Source of the DNA: Roseinatronobacter ekhonensis
Lineage (GTDB): Bacteria > Pseudomonadota > Alphaproteobacteria > Rhodobacterales > Rhodobacteraceae
NCBI RefSeq assembly: GCF_900499075.1
Contig: NZ_UIHC01000008.1
Location: forward strand, 62,001 to 126,000
Length of the DNA: 64,000 nucleotides
Direction: 5' to 3'
The notes beneath the pieces are model-generated. The model had not been told where the DNA came from, did not search any database, and was given only the letters and a program-made list of their open reading frames with translations. A program made the translations under genes and the position numbers. Below, in pieces: positions 2,574-25,964 of the stretch; positions within the stretch are counted from its first letter, which is position 1, and every line of letters starts with the position of its first letter.

Positions 2574-3493
2574 GCCTGGTTCTGGATGCGCTGACTTTGC
2601 AAGCGGGCTATAACGCCGCGCTGGTCGCCACAGGTGCGGCGCTGCTTGGTGTGGCCGCCGGAGCGTCGGGCAGCTTCTTGCTGTTGCGCAAGCGGGCACT
2701 TGTGTCGGACGCGGTCGCGCATGCTGCGTTGCCGGGCATTGTTCTGGCCTTCATGGTGATGGTGGCCTTTGGCGGTGCGGGCCGGTCGCTGGCGGGGCTG
2801 TTGCTGGGTGCGGCCCTAAGCGGCGGCGTGGGCCTGCTGGCCATGACATGGATCACCAAGCGCACCCGGCTGGCCGAAGATGCCGCCATCGGCGCGGTTC
2901 TGGGCGTGTTTTTCGGCGCGGGCGTGGTGTTGCTGACACTGGTGCAGACCATGCAGGCCGGGCGTCAGGCCGGGCTGGAAGGGTTTTTGCTGGGGTCCAC
3001 CGCAGGGATGCTGCGCGAGGATGCGATCCTGATTGCGCTTGGCGGCGCGGTGGTGCTGGCGTTGTGCTGGCTTATGCGCCGCCCCATGACGCTGGTGGCG
3101 TTTGACCCCGCCTATGCCGCCACGCTTGGCTATAACACGCGCGCGATTGACCTTGCGATGATGGGTCTGGCAACAGCGGTCACGGTCATCGGGCTGAAGC
3201 TGGTCGGGCTTGTGCTGATCGTGGCGCTGCTGATCATCCCGCCCGCCGCCGCCCGCTTCTGGACCGAACGCACCGGCGTCATGGTCTGGGTTGCGGGCGG
3301 TATCGGCGGGGCGGGTGCCTATCTTGGGGCGGCCATCTCGGCCACCGCGCCCGCCCTGCCCACCGGCCCGATCATCGTGCTGGTTCTGGCGGCGGGGTTC
3401 ACATTGTCGATGCTGTTTGCCCCCGCGCGCGGCATCCTGGGCGGGGCGCTGCGCCATGCGAGGCTGCGCCGCCAGATGCAAAGGGGCGAATAA
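2570..3493 (+). CDS. sitC: Manganese/iron ABC transporter, permease 1
   Basis: A 307-residue ABC-3 family integral membrane protein with about eight hydrophobic segments. It carries the family hallmarks RKRALVSDAVAHAALPG near residues 40-57 (the cytoplasmic coupling region) and a late LVGLVLIVALLIIPPAAAR segment. The presence of two consecutive permeases is typical of Sit/Mnt systems, whereas Znu systems have one. Both ends overlap neighbours by 1-4 bases. Assignment of the letter C rather than D follows gene order only. Confidence 0.9.
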   Translation: MSLVLDALTLQAGYNAALVATGAALLGVAAGASGSFLLLRKRALVSDAVAHAALPGIVLAFMVMVAFGGAGRSLAGLLLGAALSGGVGLLAMTWITKRTRLAEDAAIGAVLGVFFGAGVVLLTLVQTMQAGRQAGLEGFLLGSTAGMLREDAILIALGGAVVLALCWLMRRPMTLVAFDPAYAATLGYNTRAIDLAMMGLATAVTVIGLKLVGLVLIVALLIIPPAAARFWTERTGVMVWVAGGIGGAGAYLGAAISATAPALPTGPIIVLVLAAGFTLSMLFAPARGILGGALRHARLRRQMQRGE

Positions 3494-6409: not shown

Positions 6410-6457
6410 GTAAAACACCTCTTCCAAACGGGCCAGAGCCGCGCTAATCCTGCGCGC

Positions 6458-7675
6458 ATGACAGATACGATTGCAACCCCCGCCAATGCCCGCGCAAAAC
6501 GCAACGTCCTCGTGCTTGTGGCCGCGCAGGCCGTGGTCGGGGCGCAACTGCCGGTCATGTTCATCATCGGCGGGCTTGCAGGGCAGATGCTGGCTCCCAA
6601 CCCGTGTTGGGCCACGCTGCCCATTTCGATGATCGTGCTCGGGTCCATGCTGGCCGCGACGCCGCTTGCGGGCATTATGCAAGCCTACGGTCGGCGCGCC
6701 GGGTTCTGGCTGGCTTGTGCCTGCGGTGCGGCGGGCGCGATGCTGGCGGCGTATGGGTTGTATCAGGGGGCGTTCCTGATCTTTCTGGCCGGCAGCTTGC
6801 TGTCGGGCGTCTACATGTCCGCCAACGGGTTCTACCGCTTTGCCGCGACAGACACCGCCACCCCGGAATTCCGCCCCAAGGCGATTTCCTATGTTATGGC
6901 GGGCGGGTTGTTTTCAGCGATCTTCGGGCCTCAACTGGTTTCGGCCACCTCCGATTCCATGGCGATCCCCTTTCTGGGCACCTATCTGGCGGTCATCGTG
7001 CTGAACGTCGCGGGCGCGGCGCTGCTGGGGTTTCTGGACATCCCGACACCCCCCAAAGCCGAAGAGGGCGCCTTTTCTGGCCGCCCTGTGCGCGAATTGC
7101 TGTCCAGCCCGGTGATCGCGGTCGCGATCATCTGTGGCACGGTGTCGTATGCACTGATGAACCTTGTCATGACCTCTACCCCTTTGGCGGTGGTCGGCTG
7201 CGGGTTTGAAACCGGCGACGCGGCCAATATCGTCTCTGCGCATGTTCTGGCGATGTATGCGCCGTCATTCTTTACCGGCCATCTGATCGCGCGGTTCGGC
7301 TCGCGGGTTATCGTGGCGGCGGGACTGGTCATCCTGGCACTGGCGGGCGCAGTTGCCATGTCGGGGGTAGAGCTGGAGCAGTTCTACATCGCCCTGATCC
7401 TGCTGGGGATTGGCTGGAATTTCGGCTTTATCGGTGCAACCACAATGCTGACCGCTGCCTATTCGGTGGAAGAGCGTGGGCGCGTTCAGGGGTTGAACGA
7501 CATGATCGTGTTCGGCGGCGTGTTTCTGGCCTCGCTCAGTTCGGGCAGCCTGATGAATTGCTCTGGCGGGACCACGCAAACCGGATGGCAACTGGTCAAC
7601 ATGGCGATGGTGCCGTTTCTGGTGCTGGCGGGGTCTGCGCTGATCTGGCTTGCGGCACGCCCCAAGGACGCCTGA
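6458..7675 (+). CDS. Major facilitator superfamily transporter
   Basis: 405 residues with about 12 hydrophobic segments and the characteristic cytoplasmic loop between helices 2 and 3 (AYGRRAGFW). Residues 1-15 are a short cytoplasmic tail. A repeat of the loop motif appears in the second half (ARFGSRVIV). The gene is divergent from the glycosylase with 48 bases between starts. Substrate cannot be told from sequence; drug or metabolite export is the usual default. Confidence 0.85.
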   Translation: MTDTIATPANARAKRNVLVLVAAQAVVGAQLPVMFIIGGLAGQMLAPNPCWATLPISMIVLGSMLAATPLAGIMQAYGRRAGFWLACACGAAGAMLAAYGLYQGAFLIFLAGSLLSGVYMSANGFYRFAATDTATPEFRPKAISYVMAGGLFSAIFGPQLVSATSDSMAIPFLGTYLAVIVLNVAGAALLGFLDIPTPPKAEEGAFSGRPVRELLSSPVIAVAIICGTVSYALMNLVMTSTPLAVVGCGFETGDAANIVSAHVLAMYAPSFFTGHLIARFGSRVIVAAGLVILALAGAVAMSGVELEQFYIALILLGIGWNFGFIGATTMLTAAYSVEERGRVQGLNDMIVFGGVFLASLSSGSLMNCSGGTTQTGWQLVNMAMVPFLVLAGSALIWLAARPKDA

Positions 7676-10657: not shown

Positions 10658-10734
10658 TGGTCGGGGCGATAGGATTCGAACCTACGACCTACGGTACCCA
10701 AAACCGTCGCGCTACCAGGCTGCGCCACGCCCCG
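10658..10734 (-). tRNA. tRNA-Pro (anticodon UGG)
   Basis: The minus strand gives a complete cloverleaf: acceptor CGGGGCG/CGCCCCG, D-arm with GCAGCCTGGTAGCGC, anticodon stem ACGGT/ACCGT with loop TTTGGGT (UGG), T-arm AGGTTCGAATCCT region, discriminator A and an encoded CCA (10660-10658). Length 77 with CCA. Confidence 0.97.
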
Positions 10735-14991: not shown

Positions 14992-16839
14992 ATGTCATCG
15001 AACAAGAATTCCACAGGTAAGAAACTTGGGGCCGGTTTGCTAATGGGCCTGCTGGCACTCAGCCTGTTGGGGTTCGGGGTCGAAGGGTTTGGCACCGCGC
15101 GCCAAACAATCGGCACAGTGGGCAGCCGCGACATCACCGCCGATGAATACGCCCGCACGCTGCGCAACGATATGCAGGCGTTGCAGGGCCAGCTTGGCCA
15201 GCCTGTCACGATGGAACAGGCACGCCTGTTCGGTTTGGACCAGCGCGCGCTGGAACAACTGATCGACCGTGCGGCGCTCGACACCGAAGCAGAGCGGCTT
15301 GGCGTCTCGGTGGGTGATCCGACAGTGCAGGCCGAAATTCTGGCCATCCCGAATTTTCAGGGGTTGAATGGCGGCTTCGACCGCGAATCCTACCGCTTCG
15401 CACTGGAAAATGCGGGGCTGTCGGAATCGGAATTCGAAACCTCTATCCGCGAGGAAATCGCCCGGTCCATCCTGCAACTGGCCGCCGTCGGCGGTGCCAG
15501 CGCTCCAGATGGGCTGGTGGACCCTTTGTTGAACTATCAGGCGCAAACCCGCGATTTCACCATGGTCACGCTAGGACCGGATGACCTTGAAACCCCTGTC
15601 GGCCAGCCCGATGACGGCGCGCTGACCGCGTATTACGAGGACAATCTGGACCGCTACACCCTGCCCGCCGGGAAACGGTTGGACTACGCATGGATCACAC
15701 CGGAAATGCTGCTGGATACGCTGGAGGTGGACGAGGATGAGTTGCGCGAGGCTTACGAAGCCCGCAGCGCCCAATACCGCCAGCCAGAACGCCGCCTTGT
15801 AGAGCGGCTGATCATGCCCGACATGACCGCCGCCGAGGACGCGATTGCGCGCATCAATGCCGGAGAGACTACCTTTGAAGAGGTCGTCGAGGCGCGCGGC
15901 CTGTCGCTGGAAGATACCGATCTGGGCGACGTGACCCAAGACGCGCTTGACGCCGCCGGGAATGCCGTTTTCGCGCTGTCAGAGCCCGGCATGGCCGGAC
16001 CGGTCGAGACCAGTCTTGGCCCCGCGATCTTTCGGATGAACGCCATTCTGGCTGCGCGCGAAACCCCGTTTGAGGACGCCCGCGAGGAATTGCGCGACGA
16101 GGTCGCGCTGGACCGCGCCCGCCGGATATTGGGGGATAACCTTGATCTCTATGAAGATCTGCTCGCAGGCGGAGCCACCGTCACGCAACTGGCCGACGAA
16201 ACAGAGATGCAGGCGGGCCAGATTGACTGGCGCCCCGACACCCAAAGCGGCATTGCGGCCTACGAGGAATTTCGCGACGCCGCCCGCGCCGTCGAAGCCG
16301 GGGATTTCGCAGAAATCACCATCCTTGAAGATGGCGGCATGTTCGCGCTGGAATTGGTCGAAGAGATCCCGGCCGCCCCGCGCCCGCTGGACGAGATTCG
16401 CACGCAGGTCGTGCGCGACTGGCAGACCGAGGAAATCCAGTCGCGGCTACAGGCACAGGCGGATGACCTGATCGCAGAGGTCAATTCGGGGACCGCGATT
16501 GACGCCCTCGGCCTTGATAGCCTGCGGTTTGCCGATCTGTCGCGCTCTGACCCCGTGCCCGACCTGCCGCGCGCCGTTCTGACCCGTGCATTCGAACTGA
16601 ACACAGGCGCGCTGGACACCGTGGCGAATGGTGCGCAGGTCTATCTGGTGCAACTGCACGACGTGGCCGCCCCCGCCCCGGACGAAGACAGCACCCAGCA
16701 AATTCGCAGCGCGCTGGAAACGCAGATCACACAAAGCTATACGCAAGACCTGTTCGGCTATTTCGGGTCCGCATTGCGTCAGAACATGCAGATCCAGATC
16801 AATCAGCCGATGATTGACGCGGTTCAGCAGAGCTTCTGA
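14992..16839 (+). CDS. ppiD: PpiD-like periplasmic peptidyl-prolyl isomerase/chaperone
   Basis: 615 residues. A short basic cytoplasmic tail (KNSTGKK) precedes one membrane anchor at about 13-30, then a SurA/PpiD N-terminal chaperone domain (to about 175), and a central parvulin-like region (about 255-355) with the weakly conserved ERRLVERLIMPDMTAAEDA start. It assists folding of secreted proteins at the translocon exit. Strongly acidic overall. trpE follows after three bases, an arrangement recurrent in Rhodobacterales. Symbol is by architecture. Confidence 0.85.
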   Translation: MSSNKNSTGKKLGAGLLMGLLALSLLGFGVEGFGTARQTIGTVGSRDITADEYARTLRNDMQALQGQLGQPVTMEQARLFGLDQRALEQLIDRAALDTEAERLGVSVGDPTVQAEILAIPNFQGLNGGFDRESYRFALENAGLSESEFETSIREEIARSILQLAAVGGASAPDGLVDPLLNYQAQTRDFTMVTLGPDDLETPVGQPDDGALTAYYEDNLDRYTLPAGKRLDYAWITPEMLLDTLEVDEDELREAYEARSAQYRQPERRLVERLIMPDMTAAEDAIARINAGETTFEEVVEARGLSLEDTDLGDVTQDALDAAGNAVFALSEPGMAGPVETSLGPAIFRMNAILAARETPFEDAREELRDEVALDRARRILGDNLDLYEDLLAGGATVTQLADETEMQAGQIDWRPDTQSGIAAYEEFRDAARAVEAGDFAEITILEDGGMFALELVEEIPAAPRPLDEIRTQVVRDWQTEEIQSRLQAQADDLIAEVNSGTAIDALGLDSLRFADLSRSDPVPDLPRAVLTRAFELNTGALDTVANGAQVYLVQLHDVAAPAPDEDSTQQIRSALETQITQSYTQDLFGYFGSALRQNMQIQINQPMIDAVQQSF

Positions 16840-19378: not shown

Positions 19379-20773
19379 ATGGCGGATATGTCCCAGAACC
19401 CGCCCCAGCTTCGCCCCGATCTCGCCCCGCGCGCGCAACTGCGCGATGCCGCCCCCCGTCCCGATCAGCCCACCATCGGCATGGTCAGCCTTGGCTGCCC
19501 CAAGGCACTGGTCGATAGCGAGCGCATCCTGACGCGGCTGCGGGCCGAAGGGTATGCGATTTCGCCCGATTACACGGGCGCGGATGCGGTGATCGTGAAC
19601 ACCTGCGGGTTTCTGGACAGTGCCAAGGCCGAAAGCCTGGATGCGATTGGCGAGGCGTTGACCGAAAATGGCCGCGTGATCGTCACCGGCTGTCTGGGGG
19701 CGGAACCCGACTACATCACCGGCGCGCATCCGCGCGTGCTGGCGGTGACCGGCCCGCACCAGTATGAACAGGTGCTGGATGCGGTGCACCGCGCCGTGCC
19801 GCCCAAGCCCGACCCGTTCATAGACCTTTTGCCGGAAAGCAGCGTCAGCCTGACACCGCGGCACTACAGTTACCTCAAGATTTCAGAGGGCTGTAACCAC
19901 AAATGCAAGTTCTGCATTATCCCCGACATGCGCGGGCGGCTGGTCAGCCGTCCGGCCCATGCGGTGGTTCGGGAAGCTGAAAAACTGGTTGCGGCGGGCG
20001 TGCGCGAATTGCTGGTCATCAGCCAGGATACCTCGGCCTATGGCGTCGATATCAAACATGGCGAAGACAGGGGCCACCGCGCGCATATCACCGATCTGGC
20101 GCGCGACCTTGGGTCTTTGGGCGCTTGGGTGCGGTTGCACTACGTCTACCCCTACCCGCATGTGCGTGATCTAATTCCGCTGATGGCCGATGGGCTGGTG
20201 CTGCCTTACTTGGACATTCCGTTTCAACACGCCCATCCCGATACACTGAAACGCATGGCGCGCCCTGCCCATGGGGAACGCACGCTGGACCATATCGCGG
20301 CATGGCGCGACATCTGCCCCGAAATCGCGCTGCGCTCGACCTTTATCGTCGGCTATCCCGGTGAGACCGAAGAAGAATTCCAGACCCTGCTGGATTGGCT
20401 GGACGAAGCACAGTTGGACCGTGTCGGCTGTTTTCAATATGAAAACGTCGCCGGTGCCCGCGCCAATGCCCTGCCCGACCATGTGCCCGACGCGGTCAAG
20501 GCCGAGCGCTGGGAGCGCTTCATGCACAAGGCCCAAGCCATTTCAGAGGCGAAACTGGCCGCCAAAGTCGGACAGGTGATGCAGGTGATTGTCGATGACG
20601 TGGACAGCGATGGCATTGCCACCTGCCGTACCAAGGCGGATGCGCCGGAAATCGACGGCAACCTGTTCATAGACGAGGGCGCGGGTGGGCTGACGCCGGG
20701 CGATATTGTCACCGTAGAGGTGGACGAGGCTGGCGAGTATGACCTTTGGGGCAAACTGCACGCGCCGAGCTGA
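19379..20773 (+). CDS. rimO: Ribosomal protein S12 methylthiotransferase
   Basis: 464 residues. Radical-SAM enzyme that adds a methylthio group to the conserved aspartate of S12. The N-terminal UPF0004 domain has its three cluster cysteines Cys40, Cys76 and Cys105; the radical-SAM motif CNHKCKFC gives Cys172, Cys176 and Cys179; a TRAM domain ends the protein. [24 protein letters not shown] is typical of RimO rather than MiaB. ATG at 19388 is an alternative start; neither has a strong ribosome site. Confidence 0.94.
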
Positions 20774-20777
20774 GGTG

Positions 20778-20801
20778 GCGGCGCGGAATGCTCCGCGCCG
20801 C
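20778..20801. terminator. Inverted repeat after rimO, possible terminator
   Basis: GCGGCGCGGA-atgc-TCCGCGCCGC is a perfect 10-base-pair hairpin between the convergent ends of rimO and the next gene. There is no immediate T-run on either side, so intrinsic termination is uncertain. Confidence 0.4.
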
Positions 20802-20809
20802 GATACCGT

Positions 20810-21178
20810 TTACGGCACGATTTTTTGCGCCGTCTCCAGATAATCCAGGCCGTATTCGCGCAGCCGCGCGCCATTGCTGCCCTCGGATGCCTGATGCACA
20901 TATTCCAGCCTGACAGCCAGATCTTCGCTATCCGCGATCAGCTTGGCCAGTGCAACTTCAAGCGTATAGCTTAGCTGGTGCACATCTTCCATGTCATTGG
21001 GGGTCAGGCTGTCCTTGGCAAGAATCGTCGCCATGATCTGGTTATACTCGGAAAAGTTGGACAACGCCTGTTCCAGCGCTTCCGAGGGCTGCGGTGCGTA
21101 ATGATCGACAGCGTCTTGAGACAGCGCAGGCGTGGCCGCGAGCAAGGCGGCAAAAGCCAGCGGGGCAAGATATTTCAT
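20810..21178 (-). CDS. Small secreted protein, possibly DUF6746
   Basis: 122 residues: a signal peptide (1-20, cut after ALS-Q), then an all-helical, acidic domain beginning DAVDHYAPQPSEALEQALSNFSEYN. The DHY...F.EYN opening resembles proteins grouped as DUF6746, recalled from memory. No catalytic motif or cysteine. Periplasmic location is inferred. It converges with rimO and is separated from the next minus-strand gene by about 120 bases, so it may share its transcript. Confidence 0.72.
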   Translation of the reverse strand: MKYLAPLAFAALLAATPALSQDAVDHYAPQPSEALEQALSNFSEYNQIMATILAKDSLTPNDMEDVHQLSYTLEVALAKLIADSEDLAVRLEYVHQASEGSNGARLREYGLDYLETAQKIVP

Positions 21179-21300
21179 AGGTTTGGTCCTTCAGCCATGA
21201 GTTTGCGAATGGTCAGGAATGGCTTTGACCGCAATTGCGCATGGCTTGCCCTAACCCGAGTATTATTATCGGGTATTTGGACAACAGGCAAGACCCGCAG

Positions 21301-22341
21301 TCAGTTTTCTGCGGCGGGAATGGCGCGGGGGGTATGCGCCTCGTATTGGGTGCCCAGCCAATCGGTTGCGCAGCTATCGACCGCCGAAAGCTTCTCGCGG
21401 TCGGCCTCGCGCATGCGTGTGGACCGCATCAGCATGATCCGCCGCGCCAATGCGGCCCGTCCGCGCGGGCTGGCGGCAAACACCTCGTCAGGAATAAGCG
21501 CGTTGGCAGGCGTGCCATGGGTCAGCAACGCCTGATAATCCCCCAGCGCATGATACAGCGCCATAACGCAGTGCTCTTGGGTGGCAGGGCAGACCGCTTC
21601 GCAGGTGGCGCGCAAATGCAGCGCGGCAGGGGCCTGCGCCAGCCAGTCGGCCAAGTCGGCCTTGGTGGGCCGTGCGCCCTTGTGATAGCGGTGTTGCGGG
21701 TCGCCCGGGTGCAGCGCGGCGGCGCGTGCCTGCGTCAAAGTGCGATCCCGCCCCAGAAACAGCAGCGTGTCTGGATACCAGTCTTGCGCAATCACGCTGT
21801 CCTTGAATCCGTGTTCCTGACGCTTTGCCAAGCTTGTCAGGGCAAGCGCCAAGGCGCGCGGCTCTGACATCGCTGCGAATTGCGCCGCGGTGTCCAGATC
21901 GGCACCGGGCCGGAACACAGATGTCCAAGCCTGCGCAAGCGGATCCCCCTCTTTAGCCGCAAGATGCAACCAGTTTTGCCCCGATATGCCGCCGGGCGCG
22001 CGCAACAGCGCGATACGCCCGTCGCGGGGCAACGCCAACACAGCCGGTCCCTGCAAGGCGGCGTGCTTGTCGATCAGACCCAACAAGACCTGCGCCGTAA
22101 CATCGCCCGCTTGCGCCAGACCGGCCAGCGTCTGCAACCCTGCCAATTCGTCATCCGAAAGCCACGCGTCAATCGCGGCATCAAGACGCGCCGAGGACAT
22201 GCCAGAGGTCTGCGCCTGCGCCGCTTGGTAGGGCGCGAAACCAGCGATAGCCATAAGCCCCAGAACCGCCACAAGCCCGAAGAGCAAGGGTCGTTTCCCC
22301 GCCCCTTGCGTTGCTGCCAATGGACGCCTGCGTGTTGTCAT
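21301..22341 (-). CDS. Secreted or anchored helical repeat protein, function unknown
   Basis: 346 residues; not recognised. Residues 19-45 form a hydrophobic signal/anchor after a basic start (MTTRRRPLAATQGAGKR). The body is alanine- and leucine-rich helices arranged like Sel1/TPR-type repeats (AGDVTAQVLLGLIDKHAAL, KEGDPLAQAW). Cysteines in ATCEAVCPATQEHC and DSCATDW suggest disulfides. The start at 22341 (MTTRRR) gives the best signal; the segment upstream holds a terminator hairpin that may act as leader attenuator. Confidence 0.65.
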   Translation of the reverse strand: MTTRRRPLAATQGAGKRPLLFGLVAVLGLMAIAGFAPYQAAQAQTSGMSSARLDAAIDAWLSDDELAGLQTLAGLAQAGDVTAQVLLGLIDKHAALQGPAVLALPRDGRIALLRAPGGISGQNWLHLAAKEGDPLAQAWTSVFRPGADLDTAAQFAAMSEPRALALALTSLAKRQEHGFKDSVIAQDWYPDTLLFLGRDRTLTQARAAALHPGDPQHRYHKGARPTKADLADWLAQAPAALHLRATCEAVCPATQEHCVMALYHALGDYQALLTHGTPANALIPDEVFAASPRGRAALARRIMLMRSTRMREADREKLSAVDSCATDWLGTQYEAHTPRAIPAAEN

Positions 22342-22427
22342 GCCACGACTATGACGCGCACCATGCCGCGCGACAAGCACCTAGATGAAAAAAGCCATAG
22401 CACCCGGACAGACCCAGACCGCGCCAG

Positions 22428-22454
22428 AAAAAACCCGCCCTTCGCAGGGCGGGT
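22428..22454 (-). terminator. Strong intrinsic terminator on the minus strand
   Basis: On the minus strand ACCCGCCCT-gcga-AGGGCGGGT, a perfect 9-base-pair stem with a 4-base loop, is followed by TTTTTT (22433-22428). It terminates a transcript arriving from higher coordinates, yet no protein gene on that strand ends here. Confidence 0.85.
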
Positions 22455-22515
22455 CACTCACCCGCGTGTCGGCGGGACAGGGAGGAAAGTGTTTCCGACC
22501 CGATCGCCGAAAACA
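22428..22515 (-). ncRNA. Predicted FNR-controlled small RNA (or attenuator leader)
   Basis: Between a perfect FNR box (22550-22563) and the intrinsic terminator lies about 88 bases with no good reading frame. Placing the box at -41.5 predicts a start near 22515 and a transcript of about 88 nucleotides. It would contain a small hairpin GGAAA-cac-UUUCC, an unpaired C-rich stretch CCUCCCUGUCCCGCC able to pair with Shine-Dalgarno sequences, and a second stem GCGGGU-gagug-ACCCGC that competes with the terminator. The competing stems also fit a leader attenuator of the gene starting at 22341. The remaining intergenic bases to 22777 show nothing else. Predicted from layout only. Confidence 0.55.
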
Positions 22516-22549
22516 TATATATGACTATGATGTTTGACGCGCATCCACC

Positions 22550-22563
22550 TTGATCTGGATCAA
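22550..22563. promoter_or_regulatory. FNR/FixK-type binding site
   Basis: TTGATCTGGATCAA is a perfect match to the TTGAT-N4-ATCAA consensus of FnrL/FixK/Dnr regulators. It lies 35 bases before the predicted small-RNA start on the minus strand and 214 bases before the gene at 22778 on the plus strand. The minus-strand reading is preferred because of the terminator, but the plus-strand gene may also respond. Confidence 0.8.
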
Positions 22564-22777
22564 GGAGATTTGGGCAAGACCCCGATTGCGCGTAAAAATG
22601 CGCGAACAATAGACGCCGAAACACCGAATATGGGCAATATTGAGAACAATTATTTCTTCCCGCCATGTTTTTGCCCGATTTCTGCCGCGTCCCGGCCATG
22701 TCTCGTTTGCCAGCCCCATAGGCGGGCTGTAGTTTGGGCGCCACACATGCCTTCATCCATGACCCGGCAGGACACAG

Positions 22778-23677
22778 ATGACAGATATTGATCTTTCCAC
22801 CGCGCGCACAGACGCCGAATGGCTGGCCCGCCTGGACGAACTGGGCGATGAGCTGGGCGCATTCACACCCTTGGGCGCGCATCATGCGGCGTTTTATGCT
22901 GATGGCGACGACACACTGGTCGTCAGCTTTGAAACCGTGGCCGAATGCCGTGCAACCGGCCCCGAGCACAAGCCCTTGGGGCTGCTGGTCGCTCAAGCCA
23001 ATGGCTGGTCGAACCTGAGCGTGATCGCCCGCGCCCCGCGCTGGTTTCGCGACACCGAAGTGCTGGATTTCTTCGACGCGCAGATTGACGAGGGTTTTTT
23101 CGAGAGCTTCAAGCGCGTGCTGTTCTACGGCGCGGGCATGTCCGGCTATGCCGCCTGTGCCTTCAGCCTGACCGCACCGGGCGCTACCGTGCTGGCAATT
23201 GCCCCGCATGCCACGCTCGACCCGAAAATCGCACCGTGGGAGCGGCGGTTCAAATGGGCCCGGCGGCTGGACTTCCGGTCGCGCTTCGGCTTTGCGCCAG
23301 ACATGCTGGACGGCAGCCGCAACGCGTTTGTTCTGTATGATCCGTCGCAGCGCGCCGACAGCATGCATGCCACGCTGTTCCGTCGCCCGTTTGTGCATCT
23401 GCTGCGGACACCCCGCCTGTATGCCCCAACGCAAGAAGCGCTGGCACGGATGGACCTGCTGGCCCCCATGATCGAACTGGCCGCAACCGGACACCTGAAC
23501 GGCCAAAAGGCGGCGGCGCTGCTGCGCACTCGCCAGACCGATCAGGGCTATCTGCACGCCCTGACCCGCAAGATGGCCCGCAGCGGCCGCCCCACCCTGA
23601 CCGCCATCGCGGCCCGACACGCGCTGGCGCTGGCCCGACCAAAAGCCAAGCACAAACAGGCCGAACCCGTGGCGTGA
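22778..23677 (+). CDS. Conserved alpha/beta-hydrolase-like protein
   Basis: 299 residues. The centre has VLFYGAGMSGYAACAFSL, an elbow-like G-x-S-G-Y reminiscent of alpha/beta hydrolases, then VLAIAPHATLDPKIAPWE. Similar roseobacter proteins are often labelled phosphoadenosine phosphosulfate reductase, but no PAPS-reductase motif is present and I would not carry that name over. The C-terminus is basic (ARPKAKHKQ). Cytoplasmic, no signal. A perfect FNR box lies 214 bases upstream. Function unknown. Confidence 0.68.
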   Translation: MTDIDLSTARTDAEWLARLDELGDELGAFTPLGAHHAAFYADGDDTLVVSFETVAECRATGPEHKPLGLLVAQANGWSNLSVIARAPRWFRDTEVLDFFDAQIDEGFFESFKRVLFYGAGMSGYAACAFSLTAPGATVLAIAPHATLDPKIAPWERRFKWARRLDFRSRFGFAPDMLDGSRNAFVLYDPSQRADSMHATLFRRPFVHLLRTPRLYAPTQEALARMDLLAPMIELAATGHLNGQKAAALLRTRQTDQGYLHALTRKMARSGRPTLTAIAARHALALARPKAKHKQAEPVA

Positions 23678-23835
23678 CCCATCCCCGCCTGTCGCGGCGG
23701 ACAACGGTCAGCCATGAGTATTTTTGGCAAGATGAAATAGGCGTTTCAGCCCCAAACAGGCTCTGTGCAGGGGCGAACATGACATCGCGGGCGGTTCGGG
23801 CTAGTGTTATGGCACCGTCAGACACGAGGCCCGCC

Positions 23836-24432
23836 ATGACCGACACGACCCTTCGCAAGATCCAGACCCAAGGCGTACACCATATCACGCTGATCGGGGC
23901 AGACCGGGACAGCTCCATTGCCTTTTGGGAAGGGGTGTTGGGGATGCCGTTCATCTTCGACCAGCCCAATCTGGACGACCCGGATGAGGGGCACCTGTAT
24001 TTCGACCCGGGCGACGGGCGGTTGATCACGATTTTCACCAACGAGACCCGCAAGCCCGACCCCGCTGCCGTGCCAGAGGCGACGGGCAGCCTGCACCATC
24101 TGGCCTTCAACGTCTCTCAGGCGAGTTTCTGGCAAATCGCGGCGCGGCTGGATGCGCGCGGGGTGCGGCATTCGGGGCCGGTGGATCGCGGGTTTATGGA
24201 CTCGATCTATTTCCGTGACCCGCTGGGCCTGCGCATTGAATTGGCCAGCTACCGGTTCGAGCCGCCCGAAGGCTGCCGCCACGCCGATGTGATGATAGAG
24301 GCGCACCGCGTCCGCGTGGCAAACGGCGACCGCAACATCCAACGCGAACATCTGGCCGATGCGATAGAGGCGCTGGTGGAGCGACGGCAGGACTCGCTGA
24401 GTGCGGATCGGAGCGCGAAGAAGGGGTATTGA
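23836..24432 (+). CDS. VOC (glyoxalase/dioxygenase) family protein
   Basis: 198 residues. A single vicinal-oxygen-chelate module pair: GVHHITLIGADRDSSIAFWEGVLGMPFIF opens the first half and GSLHHLAFNVSQASFWQIAARL the second, with metal-ligand candidates His (VHHI, LHHLAF) and Glu (LRIELASYRFEP). This resembles ring-cleaving or glyoxalase-like enzymes of unknown substrate. The start at 23836 precedes the family's normal N-terminus; an earlier in-frame ATG at 23809 is possible. Confidence 0.82.
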   Translation: MTDTTLRKIQTQGVHHITLIGADRDSSIAFWEGVLGMPFIFDQPNLDDPDEGHLYFDPGDGRLITIFTNETRKPDPAAVPEATGSLHHLAFNVSQASFWQIAARLDARGVRHSGPVDRGFMDSIYFRDPLGLRIELASYRFEPPEGCRHADVMIEAHRVRVANGDRNIQREHLADAIEALVERRQDSLSADRSAKKGY

Positions 24433-24491
24433 GGGCGCTGGACAGATGACCACCTTGAGGTCAGACTGCTTGTACAATTTGAGCAGGCAGC

Positions 24492-25964
24492 ATGATTTCA
24501 AATATCCTTTCAAAACTCGAAGAAGAAGCAACATTGGTGCAAGCACTGGCGGCAATGGCCGCGCTTGCTCTGTTTGGTTTTGGCATCTTCAAGGGCATGA
24601 TCTGGCTTTGGAATAGGCTGTTCGCACAGCCCAAACCCGCAAAAGTAGAAGCCAGGGTTACCTTCGCTGACGAGCAAACCCGGCTGACCATGCCGGAGTT
24701 TCTGCGCATGCGAAAATTGCTGCGCGACGATATCATCGCCGAACTCGACCGCGCGGATGATGAGGAACGCAAGCGCCTGCAAGCGCGCATCAACGACCTG
24801 ACCGCACAGATCAATGACCCCGAAGGCGCGTTCGAGGCAGAGCGCAAGCGCTTGGCCGATCTGGAAGACAAGCTGTTGCGCGAGGGCAATGAACTGGGCG
24901 CGGAGCGGCTGAATTCTGCCATTGCGAAGCTGCGCGCGGGCAACACGGATGAGGCGGAAGCGATCTTTTTGGAAATCGCCGCACGCGAGGCCATGGCCGT
25001 GCAAGGCGCCGCGCGGGCCGAATTCGGCTTGGGCGAAATCGCGGAATCGCGGGTGGAGTGGCGGGCGGCGGCGCAGCACTACGCACGGGCGGCGGAGCTG
25101 GACCCAAGCTATGACACGCTGATCAAGGCCGGGGATTTGTTGTGGCGAGCGGGGCAGTATGAGGCGGCTTTTGAAAAGAACAAACGCCTTGTCGAATTGT
25201 CAAAGCAGGACTTCGGCGCGCGCGACCCGAAAACAGCGACGGCTTTGAACAACTACGCAGAATCACTCCGCGCTGCTGGCCAATATGCAGAGGCAGAGCC
25301 GCTTTACCGCGAGGCGTTGGAGATCGGGCGCGAAACGCTCGGCGACCGGCATCCCTCTTTAGCCATCCGCCTCAACAACCTCGCCGGGCTGCTGCGCGCC
25401 ACCGGGCGGCTTGCAGAGGCAGAGCCGCTTTACCGAGAGGCGTTGGAGATCAGGCGCGACACGCTCGGCGACCGGCACCCCGACACGGCCCAAAGCCTCA
25501 ACAACCTCGCCGGGATGCTGCACGCCACTGGACAGCATGCAGAGGCAGAGCCGCTTTTCCGAGAGGCGTTGGAGATCGGGCGCGACACGCTCGGCGACCG
25601 GCACCCCGATGTGGCGAGCAGCCTCAACAACCTCGCCGCGTTGCTGGAAGACACCGGGCGATATGGAGAGGCGGAGCCGCTTTCCCGAGAGGCGTTGGAG
25701 ATCGGGCGCGACACGCTTGGCGACCGGCACCCCGATGTGGCGATCTGGACCAACAACCTCGCCTTTTTGCTAGAAGCCACCGGGCGGGCTGACGCGGCGA
25801 CGCCGCTTTTTCTGCAAGCGACCGCGATTTTCCGCGCCGCGTTGGGCGATGACCACCCCAACACGCAAACAGTCGCCCGCAACACGCTGATCCACCTGCG
25901 CGAGCACGCCCCCGCCCACCCCGACCGGGCGGCGCTCGACGCCGTGTTCGGCGCGGCGGAGTAA
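24492..25964 (+). CDS. Membrane-anchored TPR protein (kinesin-light-chain type repeats)
   Basis: 490 residues. A hydrophobic segment at about 17-40 anchors the protein, followed by a charged coiled coil (about 70-145, [21 protein letters not shown]). From residue 155 the protein is built of TPRs; five 42-residue units at 259-468 share [31 protein letters not shown]...LNNLA, the kinesin-light-chain/TPR_12 type. Such proteins are protein-binding scaffolds. The tandem repeats are near identical in DNA, showing recent expansion. Partner unknown. The ribosome site is weak. Confidence 0.8.
25266..25895 (+). repeat. Five tandem 126-base TPR-coding units
   Basis: Units start at 25266, 25392, 25518, 25644 and 25770, each 126 bases (42 codons). 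Units 2-4 are nearly identical over long stretches (shared GACACGCTCGGCGACCGGCA core and surrounding bases), unit 5 is the most diverged. Copy number is likely to vary between strains. Confidence 0.85.

Follow-up and report, generated by a model that had tools for sequence, protein, structure and literature searches.

Between a minus-strand gene of 346 aa (21301-22341) and a divergent plus-strand gene of 299 aa (22778-23677), the 64,000-nucleotide stretch of Roseinatronobacter ekhonensis DNA that was analysed (the window) contained a short minus-strand unit at 22428-22516, a putative small RNA (sRNA) of about 89 nt. The downstream gene could be assigned to no family, and the divergent gene to none in Pfam or NCBIfam. 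An FNR/FnrL box (TTGATCCAGATCAA in the minus-strand reading) occupied 22550-22563 and was followed by a -10 element (TAGTCA, 22522-22527) and by a predicted transcription start at 22515-22516, relative to which the box centre was at -41.5 or -40.5. Within the RNA, a 5' hairpin (stem-loop 1, 22490-22515) preceded the anti-Shine-Dalgarno core UUUCCUCCCUGU (22477-22488), which was mostly unpaired and held the 10-mer of the alpha-R8 sRNAs. A second stem-loop (CCCGC-CGACAC-GCGGG, 22461-22476) lay between the core and a GAGU (22456-22459), placed where most homologues and SorX-type RNAs have a GACU/AACU motif. The unit ended in an intrinsic terminator (22428-22455), with a hairpin of 10 pairs at 22455-22432 according to the terminator scan and T6 at 22433-22428.

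An earlier note on this DNA had pointed to the same interval. The perfect FNR box that it claimed was there, TTGATCTGGATCAA at 22550-22563 being the only exact TTGATNNNNATCAA in the window, and its RNA of about 88 nt with the box at -41.5 agreed with the 89 or 88 nt obtained from a box centre at -40.5 or -41.5. The terminator and its T6 were also found, but the hairpin was of 10 rather than 9 pairs. The absence of a gene from the interval held in that no reading frame was conserved, although mechanical open frames did overlap it (e.g., 22454-23704 on the minus strand, antisense through the conserved gene 22778-23677). Exposure of the anti-Shine-Dalgarno-like stretch CCUCCCUGUCCCGCC was correct for CCUCCCUGU, which was mostly unpaired, but not for its CCCGC, which was paired in the second hairpin.

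Judged by single-window statistics, box and terminator were not rarer than chance. FNR-like sites with at most one mismatch numbered 2 in the window against 1.16 expected, and terminator-like sites numbered 5 in 20000-25000 against 4.6 expected. The second FNR-like site, TTGATCTCTATGAA, was at 16142-16155 with one mismatch. The locus stood far above chance because it was conserved across genomes. At gathering thresholds, Rfam models matched only a tmRNA and a tRNA in the window, and the sRNA unit was without a match. The tmRNA (326-675, minus) was of the alphaproteobacterial type and was matched by the permuted-tmRNA model too; the tRNA was at 10661-10734 (minus).

A DNA search of 60 genomes with 22600-22400 (minus) found the region at 79-82% identity in 4 of the 59 others, the matches extending almost exactly from box to terminator, with further matches on the core; matches at E ≤ 1 occurred in 54/60 genomes, and were left out of the count as mostly short and weak. 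The core pattern TTCCTCCCTGTNCCG occurred once per genome in 24/37 genomes of the genus, and the reversed control pattern gave 0 matches. With a covariance model, the sRNA was found in 25/37 genomes of the Roseinatronobacter/Roseibaca/Natronohydrobacter group (E ≤ 2.4e-5), 16 of these members having been used to build the model and the other 9 lying outside the build. The model did not find it in the remaining 12 genomes of the genus, 5 of which were 71-87% complete. Two genomes were left out as members (G029, E 0.13; G035, E 0.5), as were second matches in G034, G353, G015 and G027 (E 0.01-0.4); of the five left-out matches that were read, L162, L164, L165 and L166 contained SorX-like RNAs, and none was seen in L163.

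Outside the genus, the combined box and core pattern occurred in 2/295 Rhodobacteraceae genomes (294 genera), both belonging to the genus of the window. In the same 295 genomes the covariance model (E ≤ 0.01) matched 8, namely the same two plus six weak ones from other genera, with E values between 1.8e-4 and 5.6e-3; all six were without a box and were hit by the Rfam SorX or suhB models at E ≤ 1, below gathering scores. Weak relatives may have been missed in this search because it used strict filters and scored 13 candidates per genome. In six other Rhodobacteraceae genera (L033-L038), SorX/suhB-like RNAs near position 1540 carried TTCCTCCCTGT, an ACTGGCC-type motif and a terminator; they scored below Rfam gathering, were without an FNR box, and three of the six (L033, L036, L037) had TTAACC within 100 nt upstream.

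A collection scan returned 40 stretches, of which, by eye, 16 were this sRNA unit, 1 was a Tateyamaria SorX and 1 was an unclear Rhodobacteraceae unit (L060); among the remaining stretches, 8 were one Alcanivorax/Alcanivoracaceae block and 14 were scattered and chance-like. Carriers named by the scan were Roseinatronobacter thiooxidans (cultured strain ALG1), Roseibaca domitiana (cultured strain V10) and Roseibaca sp. Y0-43, along with Natronohydrobacter and Roseinatronobacter MAGs and other Rhodobacteraceae or alphaproteobacterial MAGs. In L060 (Rhodobacteraceae MAG Clear-D3, 3291-3392), an FNR-like box, a hairpin, TTCCTCCCTGT and a GC-rich terminator followed one another in the same order as in the window, and the unit had no Rfam match at E ≤ 1. 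The Alcanivoracaceae block, of 161 nt with TTGACCTCCATCAA and TTCCTCCCTGT, was letter-identical in eight records (L042, L046, L047, L054, L059, L061, L065, L069) and ended in an apparent gene start; this conservation was unusually strong for an apparently intergenic stretch.

The predicted fold of the 89-nt RNA, at -43.2 kcal/mol, was more stable than that of any of 200 shuffles (z = -3.51). On the 25 homologues, in an alignment fitted to the structure of the model and therefore biased in its favour, 95.9% of cells were paired (81.7% in shuffles), the covariation score was 0.455 (vs 0.190 in shuffles; slid controls did not exceed 0.124), and cells with changes on both sides numbered 76 vs 21.3. 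Covariation was found in helices 1 and 3 of the three: 6 of the 7 modelled pairs of stem-loop 1 had changed on both sides, and 5 of the 8 modelled pairs of the terminator covaried. In helix 2, 3 of 4 pairs never varied. Between the first two helices, CCUCCCUGU was invariant in 25/25 homologues, UUCCUCCCU was present in 24/25, and the exact 10-mer UUUCCUCCCU in 18/25. The GACU/AACU motif was present in 22/25, the window having GAGU. The earlier note had made its reading depend on the conservation of box and hairpin, and box, 5' hairpin, C-rich core and terminator did occur together in 23/25 homologues.

The box was at the same place in those 23 homologues, 22 of them fitting TTGAYNNNNRTCAA, including 18 that fit the strict TTGATNNNNATCAA, and L093 having one mismatch; no box was found in G020 and G022. 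The A of the conserved ATG lay 40.5 nt from the box centre in 18/23 and 39.5-42.5 nt from it in 23/23 (L104 having ATC in place of ATG, and L088 being counted to ATGCTG). The distance from box to core varied from 73 to 117 nt, a span of 44 nt; the spacing was fixed to the conserved 5' end instead. Between box and ATG most columns of the box-anchored profile of 23 promoters varied, those kept being G 15, AA 28-29, T 33, TA 36-37 (T in 19/23 and A in 21/23) and A 43. The TA at columns 36-37, kept across homologues, fits positions -12 and -11 of a -10 element that would place the start at the ATG. Such a geometry of box, -10 element and start is that of a class II FNR promoter, and the palindrome near -41.5 and the -10 element were both present in the sequence, with the start itself predicted.

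A predicted start at an ATG that is present in most members could also mean a leaderless message for a small peptide. The window has a frame of 20 aa from this ATG, and L081, L098 and L099 have similar frames of 19-20 aa. Across the 23 boxed members, however, frame lengths ranged from 2 aa to 50 aa or more and the frames used were different ones, L082 and L097, although from one close group, were read in another frame, and the U and G of the AUG were paired within stem-loop 1 in the fold, all of which makes a peptide message extremely doubtful.

The surroundings of the unit were compared at 24 loci. The divergent gene was of the same unknown family as in the window in 21/24 and, presumably, PyrC-like in 3/24. 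On the downstream side, the same-strand gene of unknown family adjoined the sRNA in 16/24, a convergent gene taken to be KsgA-like did so in 7/24, and none was found in 1/24. In L084, L086, L088, L089, L095, L100 and L104, the 3' end of the convergent KsgA-like gene was 48-111 nt from the core, so near that the sRNA terminator may serve both genes.

Because the same-strand downstream gene is so often the next in line, the unit could be its 5' leader, an attenuator or riboswitch for 21301-22341. The RNA was kept in the 7/24 loci where the next downstream gene is convergent, and none of the Rfam cis-regulatory models reached threshold in the window; a leader is thus very improbable. It is extremely improbable, too, that the box controls the divergent gene, of which it lies about 215 bp upstream, with the minus-strand unit being incidental. 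That gene is the neighbour in most loci, but the three loci with the PyrC-like gene kept both RNA and box (one mismatch in one of them), and the box spacing was fixed to the 5' end of the RNA while the distance to the divergent gene varied. Moreover, in genomes that have the divergent gene and lack the RNA, the 450 nt ahead of the gene contained neither the box (≤1 mismatch; 0/10) nor the core (≤2 mismatches; 0/10). These were 10 of the 12 sRNA-less genomes, G032 and G029 being left out. Box and RNA were thus absent together at all the sRNA-less loci compared, which agrees with the conservation expected in the earlier note, and their joint presence and absence gave a Fisher p = 3.6e-7, with kinship ignored.

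When placed on a 30-row tree of the divergent protein, the sRNA label needed 7 changes, at least 3 of them forced by well-supported branches; 87/500 shuffles were as low, so the label was not clearly clustered. Given these changes, the joint loss (or gain) of box and RNA is likely to have happened on more than one occasion.

Over the whole genome (3.9 Mb), 20 sites fitted TTGAYNNNNRTCAA, vs 4 for the reversed pattern. The genome encodes a protein with the cysteine cluster CSDCPIRHRAVCARC, which is taken to be FnrL-like, and an FNR box was found between its gene and an adjoining, presumably hemN-like gene. An Hfq gene was also present. An alternative that keeps the RNA as an alpha-R8/SorX-type sRNA would assign the box to another protein of the CRP/FNR family (e.g., CrpK- or NnrR-like), and the signal would therefore not be oxygen alone. 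The genome had 3 CRP-type helix-turn-helix matches over the Pfam cut-off, of 11 matches, and in R. sphaeroides CrpK has binding determinants in common with FnrL (PMC4263372, excerpt). Another regulator is nevertheless unlikely, given that the box fits the FNR pattern in 22/25 homologues and that the genome has an FnrL-like protein whose own promoter carries a similar box.

The preferred reading of the locus, given a probability of roughly 0.82 from sequence and comparison, is that of a trans-acting, alpha-R8/SorX-type sRNA activated by FnrL, about 89 nt long and transcribed from the minus strand by a class II FNR-dependent promoter. The sRNA is very probably real, conserved and FNR-activated, and represents a variant within a known class of anti-Shine-Dalgarno sRNAs. 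An oxygen-responsive trans-acting sRNA, proposed in the earlier note, is thus supported as still the simplest reading. As oxygen falls, FnrL would bind the box near -41.5 and recruit RNA polymerase, as sequence and conservation suggest. The core UUUCCUCCCUGU, with Hfq, would then pair with GGGAGG-type Shine-Dalgarno sequences, and a set of mRNAs would thereby be translationally repressed at low oxygen; this second step is proposed by resemblance to the known sRNAs.

Ahead of start codons in the own genome, ACAGGGAGG had 5 sites vs 1 and 1 for the reversed pattern, and none of the five was a conserved or convincing target. Two (L135, L136) were the complements of the window sRNA and of a sibling sRNA, one (L138, near 273; C185) fell within a short tandem repeat that has ACAGGGAGG in its unit, and one (L134) lay ahead of a doubtful short frame before a gene presumed to be CobQ-like. 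The fifth (L137) lay ahead of a real-looking gene, taken to be GcvT/DmdA-like. It was not a conserved target because the site was exact in 3/20 homologues, one of them without the sRNA (G000 and G004 with it, G032 without); in proportion, it was exact in 2/14 sRNA-carrying vs 1/6 sRNA-less genomes.

Among known sRNAs, the window RNA shares its layout with the alpha-R8 group (MmgR of S. meliloti, SisA-D of Caulobacter), described in the available part of PMC12559287 as a weak 5' hairpin, single-stranded UUUCCUCCCU and an intrinsic terminator. In the window, UUUCCUCCCU followed stem-loop 1 and was mostly unpaired, and a Rho-independent terminator was present. MmgR is Hfq-dependent, with a predicted anti-Shine-Dalgarno motif and three stem-loops (PMC7143759, excerpt); the number of hairpins alone therefore does not separate the window RNA from it. 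The window RNA differs from MmgR and SisA-D in its FNR-type promoter. The Caulobacter siblings are under independent transcriptional control, and alpha-R8 siblings may control overlapping targets while being made under different conditions (PMC12559287, excerpt). The Rfam suhB model, which covers MmgR (RF00519, gathering 41 bits), matched nothing in the window region at E ≤ 10, nor anything at E ≤ 1 in the homologue loci scanned (20 of 24).

With SorX of R. sphaeroides, the window RNA shares the CCUCCCUGU core, a GACU-type motif and the terminator; it differs in that a hairpin separates the core from the GACU place, where the SorX consensus has none. Identity with SorX (RF02784, gathering 46.6 bits) was rejected, as the model was unmatched in the window RNA and the genome has a separate SorX elsewhere (L112; 65.4 bits), which is without an FNR box. 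The SorX model matched 37/37 genomes of the genus at E ≤ 1, 27 of them over the cut-off, and 10/14 controls, 0 of them over the cut-off. Further CCUCCCUGU-NNGACU sRNA candidates were seen in the same genome in L115 (minus, near 1542) and L117 (plus, near 731), so that it totals SorX, the window RNA and at least two more RNAs of this form. An FNR box was found in 1 of 22 SorX-type RNAs examined, that of Tateyamaria, itself found through the box pattern. This SorX homologue of Tateyamaria sp. Alg231-49 (L072, about 6413-6547) scored 59.8 bits, above gathering, and its box TTGACCCAGATCAA starts 92 nt before the CCUCCCUGU core. SorX is processed from the ompR-1 3' UTR in R. sphaeroides (PMC8625941, excerpt), where an FnrL ChIP-seq site is in the putative promoter of RSs2461 (PMC4263372, excerpt), which is SorX (PMC5036791, excerpt).

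The best Rfam match of the window RNA was anti-hemB of Burkholderia (RF02837), rejected at 25.9 bits against a gathering score of 49.5. The match spanned CCUCCCUG and the terminator, lacked the first hairpin of the model, and was seen again in 12 of the 20 homologue loci scanned, at 22.3-29.6 bits.

PcrZ of R. sphaeroides, which the earlier note had named as a known FnrL-dependent sRNA while claiming no sequence identity, is induced by low oxygen and depends on PrrA and FnrL; its promoter has a PrrA site, which points to PrrA as a direct regulator, and control by FnrL may be indirect (PMC8139620, excerpt). It differs in length too, its 136 nt being cut down to about 55 nt (PMC6238624, excerpt), vs about 89 nt in the window. 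PcrZ is probably not the right relative, the alpha-R8/SorX-type sRNAs being nearer.

The kind of sRNA is known, and there seems to be no earlier description of its oxygen-controlled variant: no account of the window sRNA was found in the open-licence literature searched, which is not proof of absence, and the matching literature found was a lake-community study. The variant would add an oxygen-controlled sRNA to the group. As the likely signal of one sibling can be read from the DNA, the scheme of one core under different regulators is directly testable. With the genus of the window, the Tateyamaria SorX and the ChIP-seq site of R. sphaeroides SorX as cases, it may tentatively be suggested that in Rhodobacteraceae direct FNR control of an alpha-R8/SorX-type anti-Shine-Dalgarno sRNA has arisen more than once, the genus having a dedicated extra sibling that would shut down a set of aerobic functions as oxygen falls. 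FnrS of enterobacteria is an FNR-activated sRNA that represses its targets under anaerobic conditions (PMC4263372, excerpt); the analogy is one of control only, in different bacteria, and the Rhodobacteraceae sRNAs, if so controlled, would be its counterpart made from an unrelated RNA.
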